Shown piece by piece: positions 2,861 through 28,147 of a stretch of DNA of 29,601 bases. The first letter of the stretch is position 1. Every line of letters begins with the position of its first letter. The translations under genes and the position numbers were made by a program. The notes below the pieces were generated by a model, which had not been told where the DNA came from, ran no database searches, and worked only from the letters and a program-made list of their open reading frames with translations. This DNA is from a virus: the IMG/VR virus record IMGVR_UViG_3300030107_005365, positions 1 through 29,601 of that record. The stretch is one strand, 5' to 3'.

Positions 2861-2988
2861 TTTCTCTTTCCTCTCTTTAGTGGTTTAGGCGTTATGCCAG
2901 GGGCCACAAGCTGATTAATCAAATCCCCTAGATATACATATAGTAAATTTTTCTTACGCTTTCAAGAAAAAAAAGCCGTTAGGTTATT

Positions 2989-3037
2989 TTGGCGATAGAA
3001 CGAATTTGGAACATCTTTGGCGATAATTTGGCGATAA
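2989..3037 (+). repeat. Left attP arm: three TTGGCGATA direct repeats
   Basis: Copies lie at 2989-2997, 3017-3026 and 3028-3037, all in the same orientation. The last two start 11 bp apart. Together with the two copies at 3280-3300 they flank the att core, which is how arm-type integrase sites are arranged. They also sit between integrase operon and core, so integrase binding here could autoregulate its own promoter. Confidence 0.75.
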
Positions 3038-3049
3038 ACCGATTTTTCC

Positions 3050-3083
3050 AAAAAAAAATGACCTAGCACTGCTGCTAAGTCAT
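3050..3083 (-). terminator. Intrinsic terminator (minus strand) beside the att core
   Basis: On the minus strand a stem ATGAC-x-TAGCA (3083-3073) pairs with TGCTA-x-GTCAT (3068-3058), with one internal mismatch and a four-base loop. It is followed by nine T residues (3058-3050). It ends the late transcript running in from the endolysin and nuclease genes. After integration it would lie about 10 bp behind the reconstituted tRNA, so it can also replace the host tRNA terminator. Confidence 0.8.
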
Positions 3084-3090
3084 TGATTTT

Positions 3091-3137
<47 letters not shown>

Positions 3138-3172
3138 TGTACAAAACGACTAATTATTTGTCGTTATGTACA
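3138..3172. repeat. 13-bp inverted repeat abutting the att core
   Basis: TGTACAAAACGAC (3138-3150) and GTCGTTATGTACA (3160-3172) are inverted copies matching at 12 of 13 positions, with a 9-bp AT-rich spacer. The left arm starts at the first base after the tRNA-identical core. It is a candidate operator or accessory binding site for integrase, an excisionase or a host bending factor. There is no T tract, so it is not a terminator. Confidence 0.65.
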
Positions 3173-3230
3173 TCAATAAAATCAATAACTTGCAGATATT
3201 TCAATATGTTACCGGCAGCTCACGGTGTCC

Positions 3231-3270
3231 CATGCTTACCTTGCCTTACCTTCTGTAACCTCCCCTTACC
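3231..3270 (+). repeat. Four iterons with an exact 10-bp period
   Basis: Four consecutive decamers (CATGCTTACC, TTGCCTTACC, TTCTGTAACC, TCCCCTTACC) share the ending TWACC at an exact 10-bp period. An isolated GTTACC lies at 3209-3214. All copies would face the same side of the helix, as expected for cooperative binding of a small protein such as an excisionase, or for a curved accessory region. Confidence 0.6.
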
Positions 3271-3279
3271 CGTTATTTT

Positions 3280-3300
3280 CTGGCGATAAATTGGCGATAT
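3280..3300 (+). repeat. Right attP arm: two TTGGCGATA-type repeats
   Basis: CTGGCGATAA (3280-3289, one mismatch) and TTGGCGATAT (3291-3300) start 11 bp apart, in the same orientation and spacing as the left-arm pair at 3017-3037. They are probable arm-type integrase sites on the far side of the core. The 100 bp between here and 3401 hold nothing else I can support. Confidence 0.7.
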
Positions 3301-3400
3301 TGCCCAATGTTCCTAACGACTTACTCTTCATATATCAGCTTGTGACCATTACGTTTCGTACAGACCATCAGGCCCAAAGCCTGACGACCTACCGTTTACG

Positions 3401-21835: not shown

Positions 21836-23149
21836 CTATGCAGATTCATCGCAGCCGATAGAAACGACCTTGGATTCTTCCATCCTAGTCGACCCTACGG
21901 TGGCGCAATAAAATACCTGTGTGGAGTAAGACTTGTCCGAACGCTCATCAATTTTGGCGGTCGTGTCTTTCCCAACAGCAAGTAGGATTCCATCCTCAGC
22001 CCATGCAAAACAGGTTCGGATGTTGGATGCTACCGCGAGGCGATTGCTTACGTGGAACTTGAAGCCAAGATAGGAATCAAGCTCACCGCGAGCTAAGGCT
22101 TTCACGGTATTGAAATCTGAACTTTTGACTTCAGTCGTATTCAGCAAAGCTGAAATCTGAGCAGGCGCTACAACAATGTGTCGCGGAATGCTCGGATCGA
22201 TATCCGCCGAGTCCATGACTTCCTTGGCACTCAGGAGCTTGGCAACCGTCATATCCGCGCTGCCATGTGCGATCGTATTCGCAGCAAGCATTGAGGTGCT
22301 GGTCGAGCCAGCTTTGCCGGTTTTAGACGTACCTGTCGCGGCTGCAATAATCTCATCATCGATGGATCTATTGATAGCCGCGGCAGCTGCCTGAGCATAA
22401 GTTGATGTCGGATCAGCCAACATTTTTACTTTGTCGGCGTCGTCAATCAGGTCGGCCCATTCGTATGTTTCTAAAGTAACCATACGTCTGGAATGTGGGG
22501 TTTCCCGTACCAACTACAGCTTTCACTGCCGTTTTCACGTTTGTGGTCTGGACTATACCTTGACCGTCGCCCAAAGCGTTACGGCCCTCACCGTCTAGTC
22601 TCTACACGTTCCCCGAAGGGCTTCGCTCGGTATTGCCATTTTACAGGTTTCACCGAATTTGATGAGTTTTCAGAAAGTGCTTTCACACTAACTAGGCAGA
22701 AATTTTTACCAGTGGTGTATCCCCGTGTCTTGTCGTCCGCTTTACAGCCGCTCACTTATGTTCGCTTCAGTTCGCTAAACTGAAACCGCTTTCGCTGCTA
22801 TGTGTCGCCACATAGGTCAGATCATATCACCGTCCACTGGGGACGCTCTGCGCTTCGGCTGGGCTTCCAGCCTACTCCCTTTCGGGATGATCGTTGCACC
22901 TTCCCATTTCTGGGCTTGGATCAGGATTGTCTACTAGAGAGTTCCCCTGAGTTCACAGAGTTTTCACTAACGCATCACTGCATTAGGCCGCTAACAGCTA
23001 ACGGAGCCTACTTGGTCGAAAAACGCTTTTTCGCCCGTGACAGACTCTTCACGAACCGCACCGCGAAGGACACTTCCGCGCTGTTGAGCGAGTAAAGCGA
23101 TATTTGAGCTAAACTGCTGAACAAACGCTGTGGTGACTTGTGTGGACAC
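21836..23149 (-). CDS. Major capsid protein, split by two group I introns (287 aa after splicing)
   Basis: The coding sequence is a join of exon 1 (23149-23001), exon 2 (22752-22708) and exon 3 (22505-21836), totalling 864 nt. Exon 1 starts with GTG, five bases after a perfect AGGAGG, and encodes STQVTTAFVQQFSSNIALL through FFDQVGS. Exon 2 gives AAVKRTTRHGDTPL. Exon 3 continues ETPHSRRMVTLETYEWADLI. Both junctions fall inside Val codons (GT|A and GT|G). The joined protein reads through as a Phage_capsid_2-type shell protein without a gap. Without splicing, translation stops four codons past the first junction, so splicing is essential for virion formation. Scaffold precedes the gene and the decoration gene follows, as expected. 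Confidence 0.93.
22506..22707 (-). ncRNA. Group I intron 2 of the capsid gene (202 nt, no ORF)
   Basis: On minus-strand RNA: P1 pairs exon end ACUGGU with GCC-u-AGU, placing the U.G pair at the splice site. P2 is AGUGU-GAAA-GCACU (22689-22676). P3 is CUCAUC (22666-22661) with GGUGAG (22592-22587). P4 is UCGGU with ACCGA (22656-22652, 22631-22627). P6 is CCC-UUCG-GGG. P7 is GACUA (22600-22596) with UAGUC (22555-22551), inside the typical strings GUAGAGACUAGACGG and AAGGUAUAGUCC. P8 is GGCCGU with ACGGUC. A P9 hairpin GCAGU-GAAA-GCUGU follows. The intron ends in G at 22506, and P10 pairs UUUCU with exon 3 GGAAA. It has no P7.1/P7.2 and no endonuclease ORF. Confidence 0.92.
22708..22752 (-). other. 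45-nt internal exon of the capsid gene
   Basis: This exon lies between the two introns and supplies 14 whole codons (AAVKRTTRHGDTPL) plus the outer bases of two split Val codons. It is much shorter than either intron. Both of its ends pair with intron guide sequences: its first seven bases with intron 1 (P10) and its last six with intron 2 (P1). Confidence 0.9.
22753..23000 (-). ncRNA. Group I intron 1 of the capsid gene, IA2-like (248 nt, no ORF)
   Basis: On minus-strand RNA: P1 pairs exon end CCGU and intron UA with UAGCGG, giving the U.G pair at the splice site. P2 is CUAAUGC with GCGUUAG (22986-22967). P3 is CUCUGUG (22960-22954) with CGCAGAG (22852-22846). P4 is UCAGGG with UCCUGA. P6 is CCCA-GAAA-UGGG. 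P7 is GAUCAU (22892-22887) with AUGAUC (22825-22820). Two extra hairpins, P7.1 (CCC-GAAA-GGG) and P7.2 (GGCUG with CAGCC), precede P3. P8 is CGUCC with GGACG. P9 is CUAUGUG-GCGA-CACAUAG. The last base is G, and P10 pairs AGCUGUU with all seven bases of exon 2 AGCGGCU. Confidence 0.95.
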
Positions 23150-27925: not shown

Positions 27926-28147
27926 CTATTTTTTCGATCTGTTGCGGCTACGTGACATAACACTCAAATTCGAGGAGCGGTTGTCTTGCGGATTGCCGTT
28001 CTTGTGGTCTATGTCTTTGCCGTCGCCCCTTTTCACCCTGCCGCGTTTCATTAGCGATCGACGGGCGGCGTTGCGGCTGGCACGGTTTTTTTTCTGTTTT
28101 GGTTTACTATGATACGTCGCGTATTCGTTTGCGTAGTTTCGGGCCAT
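27926..28147 (-). CDS. Small HNH endonuclease (73 aa)
   Basis: The core motif is GDGKDIDHKNGNPQDNRSSN followed by L-V-SRS-NRSK. It contains the DH pair, the central Asn and the final N-R-S typical of compact HNH nucleases linked to phage terminase operons. A basic N-terminus (RASRNAARRSLMKRGRVKRG) would bind DNA. Such genes next to TerL often assist genome cutting during packaging. A freestanding homing role is also possible given the introns 5 kb away, though neither intron encodes an endonuclease. The ATG overlaps the preceding stop in TAATG. Confidence 0.88.
   Translation of the reverse strand: MARNYANEYATYHSKPKQKKNRASRNAARRSLMKRGRVKRGDGKDIDHKNGNPQDNRSSNLSVMSRSRNRSKK

Follow-up and report, generated by a model that had tools for sequence, protein, structure and literature searches.

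Two putative self-splicing group I introns in the major capsid gene of an uncultured HTVC010P-type phage

The interrupted capsid gene and its reading frame

Positions 23149-21836 on the minus strand of the window (the whole 29,601-nt stretch of viral DNA analysed here) encode a major capsid protein (MCP) without a continuous frame, and stop codons abounded outside three exons, all of which lie on that strand. Exon 1 (23149-23001, 149 nt) starts with GTG, carries codons 1-49 and two bases of Val50, and ends in CCGT; a Shine-Dalgarno-like AGGAGG lies 5 nt upstream of the start codon (23160-23155, minus strand) and was also found in three closely related contigs treated below (L002, L003 and L004). 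Exon 2 (22752-22708) has 45 nt, or 15 codons' worth, and was delimited by exon joining and by alignment with intronless alleles. Exon 3 (22505-21836, 670 nt including the stop codon) matched the profile PF19821 (E=1.1e-64) and PHROG 3437, a major head protein family. The exons are separated by two segments without open reading frames on the same strand, both in phase 2, which are the predicted intron 1 (23000-22753, 248 nt, at Val50) and intron 2 (22707-22506, 202 nt, at Val65).

When the three exons were joined, an 864-nt frame of 287 amino acids plus a stop codon was obtained. Residues 5-285 of this protein covered the PF19821 (Phage_capsid_2) profile from 1 to 293 with 287 bits (E=1.6e-85), a full-length match, whereas exon 3 alone matched positions 63-293 only. 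The MCPs of HTVC010P-type pelagiphages aligned without interruption over 100% of the spliced protein, with up to 64-65% identity. Judged by these comparisons, the host gene is the major capsid gene of an uncultured, marine-type tailed phage, with an MCP of the HTVC010P type. A sequence-only reading of this DNA had proposed the three exons, their lengths and the Val codons at both junctions, and exon joining together with the alignment of intronless alleles confirmed them to the base. It had also stated that the gene has no continuous frame and that joining restores a single 287-aa capsid frame, and the stops throughout the sequence outside the claimed exons and the coverage of the complete capsid profile bear out both statements. 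One of the signs that it had named as speaking against splicing, homologs failing to align across the junctions, did not appear; uninterrupted MCPs aligned exactly across both. When AlphaFold2 was run on the MCP of an intronless relative with a shallow alignment of 15 rows, the pLDDT was 34, too low for judging an HK97-type fold.

The GC content was about 46-52%, and the HTVC010P type was assigned from the MCP comparison only. A phage integrase gene was located at 1274-2593 of the window. Near it, the translation of an open reading frame at 2962-3144 (HNLKVAGSNPAPAT) resembles read-through of a tRNA 3' end and is perhaps an attachment site; ARAGORN detected no whole tRNA there. The integrase and the possible attachment site suggest a temperate phage despite the HTVC010P-type MCP.

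Group I structure and predicted splicing

Both segments exceeded the curated gathering cut-off of 50 bits when searched with the Rfam group I model RF00028: intron 2 scored 61.8 bits (22717-22536) and intron 1 scored 53.6 bits (23010-22798), and no further match was obtained elsewhere in the 29.6-kb window. The margin of intron 1 over the cut-off was only 3.6 bits, and no match above this cut-off was reported for the near-identical copy in L004/L203; the assignment of intron 1 draws in addition on the copy in L004 and on covariation, and that of intron 2 on covariation. The P1 helix of intron 1 is CCGU/GCGG, with a U·G pair at the splice site, and that of intron 2 ends in GGU/GCC; a terminal G closes both introns. 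P10 comprises up to 8 bp in intron 1 and 5 bp (GGAAA/UUUCU) in intron 2. A P3-P8 core with the P7 pseudoknot was found in both introns in the Rfam alignment and in the cores of their two families.

Splice sites were set by hand for 18 introns of these families, 16 of which were distinct in sequence, bar one near-identical pair. Automated calling misplaced some sites at V199 owing to ties in local alignment and failed on the window, and the hand-checked sites were used. In every hand-checked case the exon 5' of the intron ended in U and the intron ended in G, and the spliced frame of each MCP relative checked was a full-length MCP. Family A, which includes intron 2, had lengths of 188-208 nt in this set and a short P1, mostly GGU/GCC, while family B, which includes intron 1, ranged from 241 to 266 nt. 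In family A, standard pairing was seen in 97.2% of pair cells, and both sides had changed in 31 of 50 pairs against a shuffled mean of 18, a count that none of 500 shuffles reached. P3, P4, P6 and P8 covaried and P7 was invariant; the P10 helix covaried with the 3' exon across insertion sites. Double changes were found in 48 of the 70 pairs predicted for family B. By these sequence features, introns 1 and 2 are members of different subfamilies (B and A, respectively). The sequence-only reading had proposed two different group I introns with P1, P3, P4, P6, P7, P8 and P10 in each, and the model scores, the Rfam alignment, the covariation and the pairing of P1 and P10 with the exons agree with this.

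An in-frame stop was present 2-9 codons past the 5' splice site in every intron; counted across the junction, it is the fourth codon in intron 1 and the sixth in intron 2. We infer that such early stops would keep ribosomes off the ribozyme core. They also argue against an intein, since translation would end soon after each 5' junction. Inteins, group II introns and gene duplications were rejected as identities of the two segments by these stops together with the matches to the group I model, the U and G boundary rule and the P1 and P10 pairings; nothing that supports any of the three was found, and the chance that one of them is correct is negligible. Neither intron was found to encode a homing endonuclease, and the overlapping antisense open reading frames had no Pfam match at E<=0.1.

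Our main reading, to which we give a probability of roughly 93%, is that two small group I introns without reading frames, of families B (Val50) and A (Val65) and 45 nt apart, would restore the 287-aa MCP by self-splicing. Both most likely do so by the standard two-step reaction initiated by guanosine, as their structures predict. In P1, the last U of the exon would pair with a G from the internal guide sequence, and guanosine would attack there; the intron-terminal G and P10 would bring in the downstream exon, and removal of both introns would lead to a normal 287-aa capsid protein. Splicing in the cell, with its efficiency and order, we infer from the DNA. By sound reasoning, production of the capsid would depend on two splicing reactions per transcript.

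If splicing had instead been lost, the gene would be dead or the capsid would be built from fragments, such as a 225-aa piece translated from TTG at 22513 in a split arrangement like that of Aeh1 NrdA. An open reading frame with this possible start does extend over 22513-21836, and a phage intron that does not splice has been described along with the split NrdA (PMC7344957). However, the exon differences from the nearest alleles were mostly synonymous with no amino acid change around the junctions, P1 and P10 were intact and matched the exons, the core was conserved with covariation, and the N-terminal 65 residues belong to the conserved family profile, all of which makes a loss of splicing very improbable.

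Functional splicing could still be regulated or alternative. Joining the 5' site of intron 1 to the 3' site of intron 2 would keep the frame because both introns are in phase 2 and exon 2 has 45 nt; the resulting 272-aa variant matched PF19821 from end to end, with 249 bits vs 287 bits, and exon skipping between group I introns has been reported in Twort orf142 and in a SIOphi gene (PMC11878797). However, skipping would drop 15 residues (AAVKRTTRHGDTPLV), including A51, A52, K54, T56, R58, H59, D61 and T62, which were invariant in 15 relatives, indicating that a functional variant is unlikely. Splicing might alternatively gate late capsid synthesis, but most relatives are intronless, showing that regulation of this kind is generally not needed. 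We consider regulated or alternative splicing unlikely, and removal of both introns remains the preferred reading.

Intronless alleles, an intron hotspot and intron mobility

The IMG/VR contigs L001, L002 and L003 carried an uninterrupted MCP gene whose product was 97-98% identical to that of the window. Their DNA aligned with the window base by base, and the gaps were exactly the two segments. L004 contained intron 1 only, with one difference in 248 nt, and was without intron 2; an exact-pattern search found no identical copy of intron 2. The window and L003 did not differ in CDS 1-135. By contrast, 19 nucleotide differences and no amino acid change were found in CDS 136-225 (90 nt around both junctions), and the divergence was lower after that. 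Some of the silent flank changes create P1 and P10 pairings; P10 with the exons of the intronless alleles would have only 2 bp for either intron, compared with 8 bp (intron 1) and 5 bp (intron 2) in the window. Such a synonymous cluster, with changes that make P10, is expected if the flanks were co-converted when the introns were transferred. L001-L003, L004 and the window thus show the pattern that marks a mobile intron, in which alleles with and without the intron occur together and the flanks are co-converted. Given that alleles with no intron and with one intron occur in nearly identical form, and that the flank differences were synonymous only and some of them create P1 and P10, the introns look as if they were acquired recently by allelic exchange. 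Towards its 3' end the MCP gene has another divergent stretch (CDS 721-765; 17 nt and 4 amino acids different from L003), which indicates that recombination in this gene was not confined to the introns.

The window is a metagenome contig, and alleles with intron 1 only and with no intron occur in the same species-level group, so the two introns could each be present in the population and never in one genome, having been brought together in a chimera of strains. Exon 2 looks mosaic in that only its left part matches L004. Yet only 45 nt separate the introns, and assembly through both should need reads or k-mers that hold both intron ends; moreover, independent contigs of the same lineage carried MCP genes with two and three introns. 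We judge a chimera improbable.

On the contigs compared here, the MCP gene of the HTVC010P-like lineage is an intron hotspot, of which the window is one example. About 8-10% of the sampled contigs had an MCP intron (10/120 in one sample and about a dozen/115 in another). About twelve insertion sites were recorded, at F43, V50, V53, 60/61, L64, V65, 71/72, L84, 152, V199, L202 and 258, plus one near 64-69; in 32 contigs, V199 was occupied by an intron of family A. L038 had a relative of intron 1 at CCGT/AG of codon 71/72, compared with CCGT/AG at V50 in the window, showing that family B used two similar sites. The sequence-only reading had called two introns in one phage structural gene rare. 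This did not hold, as seven MCP contigs of the lineage besides the window had at least two introns. L311 (1008-2573; sites 43, 199 and 258) and L325 (4559-6088; sites 60, 84 and 199) had three each, and every one of these scored above the Rfam cut-off. Two introns were present in L309, L319, L320, L314 and L267; in L314 and L267 the contig end truncates the second intron, and the V199 intron was assigned in L319 and L314 from the profile and not from the Rfam cut-off. A profile search of about 2.5 Mb of MCP-centred loci gave no intron outside the MCP gene, a negative result that is partly circular, since MCP introns had served to build the profile. The Rfam model likewise detected none beyond the MCP gene in the loci searched with it, and it gave no match anywhere in 148.6 kb of sequence from eleven loci free of introns.

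As the introns lack reading frames, they would have to rely on an endonuclease supplied in trans or spread by way of RNA. Comparison of the alleles favours exchange between strains at the DNA level, as far as can be read from the alignments. A free-standing gene for a 73-aa HNH_3 endonuclease was observed at 27926-28147, upstream of the terminase gene, and is a candidate trans mover of introns without reading frames. The occurrence of many sites with a P1 of only 3-4 bp is compatible with reverse splicing. The capsid gene of HTVC010P-like phages might even be a general sink, in which introns without reading frames reverse-splice into the abundant MCP mRNA, for which a guide pairing of about 3-4 bp would suffice, and afterwards re-enter the DNA. 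This idea is speculative and we give it a small chance; if true, it would explain the roughly twelve sites, the two families, the presence of as many as three introns in one gene and their absence from neighbouring genes.

Phage introns have mostly been reported from genes of DNA metabolism and packaging. By contrast, a whole phage lineage here carried introns in the capsid gene and none nearby in the sequence examined. A 2025 survey asks why phage introns colonise only genes of DNA metabolism and packaging (PMC11878797). The lineage-wide hotspot is a more interesting result than the two introns of the window. Alleles with no, one, two and three introns exist, some in near-identical backgrounds, which allows a direct comparison of the cost and spread of the introns and of splicing efficiency at very high expression levels. 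For marine viromics, where the MCP gene is a standard marker, the introns are also a warning that this gene is split or truncated by automatic annotation.

Comparison with related introns and published precedents

A related capsid intron was found in a cultured pelagiphage, HTVC120P (MH598807.1), making capsid introns of this kind accessible to tests at the bench. An unannotated 197-nt family A intron lies at 2968-3164 between two coding sequences annotated as 'capsid protein', and joining them restores FPVMGRTVAAYH; it scored under the Rfam cut-off and was assigned by its homology to family A and by the restored capsid motif. An 80% identical relative of this intron was observed at 190292-190454 of LR756501.1, a 735-kb uncultured phage record without annotation. 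The capsid gene of Chosvirus KM23-C739 (KT997847.1) had two unannotated group I matches at opposite ends (2446-2626 and 3155-3335), the second without an exact splice site. HTVC120P and KM23-C739 thus resemble the window in having family A introns in the MCP gene of a marine phage, but their capsid protein is that of the Autographiviridae and not Phage_capsid_2, and their introns are unannotated. In phage C72C1 (OQ984150.1), an intron similar to family B (2435-2675) lies between two 'major head protein' coding sequences, and small antisense open reading frames are annotated over it.

In a literature search that most subscription papers lay outside, we found no description of MCP introns for viruses of the pelagiphage type, no capsid gene described as an almost exclusive intron target with about twelve sites, and no mention of HTVC120P. 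The portions available of the published accounts of P7_Pc, PA-SR01, S-SRM01 and MEP401 contained no MCP intron.

The earlier claim of rarity is also countered outside the lineage, by the two matches in the KM23-C739 capsid gene, by a crAss-like phage and by Twort. In the crAss-like genome (Zeta group, cMAG OLRF01000054), the MCP gene is divided into five fragments by group I introns (PMC7886860). As in the window, several group I introns cut one MCP gene; unlike the window, with its introns of 202-248 nt and no reading frames, this phage belongs to a gut lineage and three of its four inserts encode protein domains of intron type (PMC7886860). Mycobacteriophage LittleE and lactococcal phage Tuc2009 have a group I intron in the major capsid gene, and in LittleE capsid splicing was demonstrated by RT-PCR and N-terminal sequencing (PMC3706429). 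They differ from the window in having one described intron each, and that of LittleE is 820 nt long with a homing endonuclease frame on the opposite strand (PMC3706429). Several introns per phage gene, short exons and exon skipping have been published for Twort and the Bastillevirinae (PMC11878797). The tail tube gene of Staphylococcus phage Twort (orf142), which gave three RF00028 matches, resembles the window in that a single virion gene holds several small group I introns, and one of them was 79% identical to intron 1 over 90 nt; the gene encodes a tail tube rather than a capsid protein, and exon skipping has been demonstrated in Twort. With multi-intron MCP genes, single MCP introns and other multi-intron phage genes all published, the arrangement in the window is therefore already known in kind.
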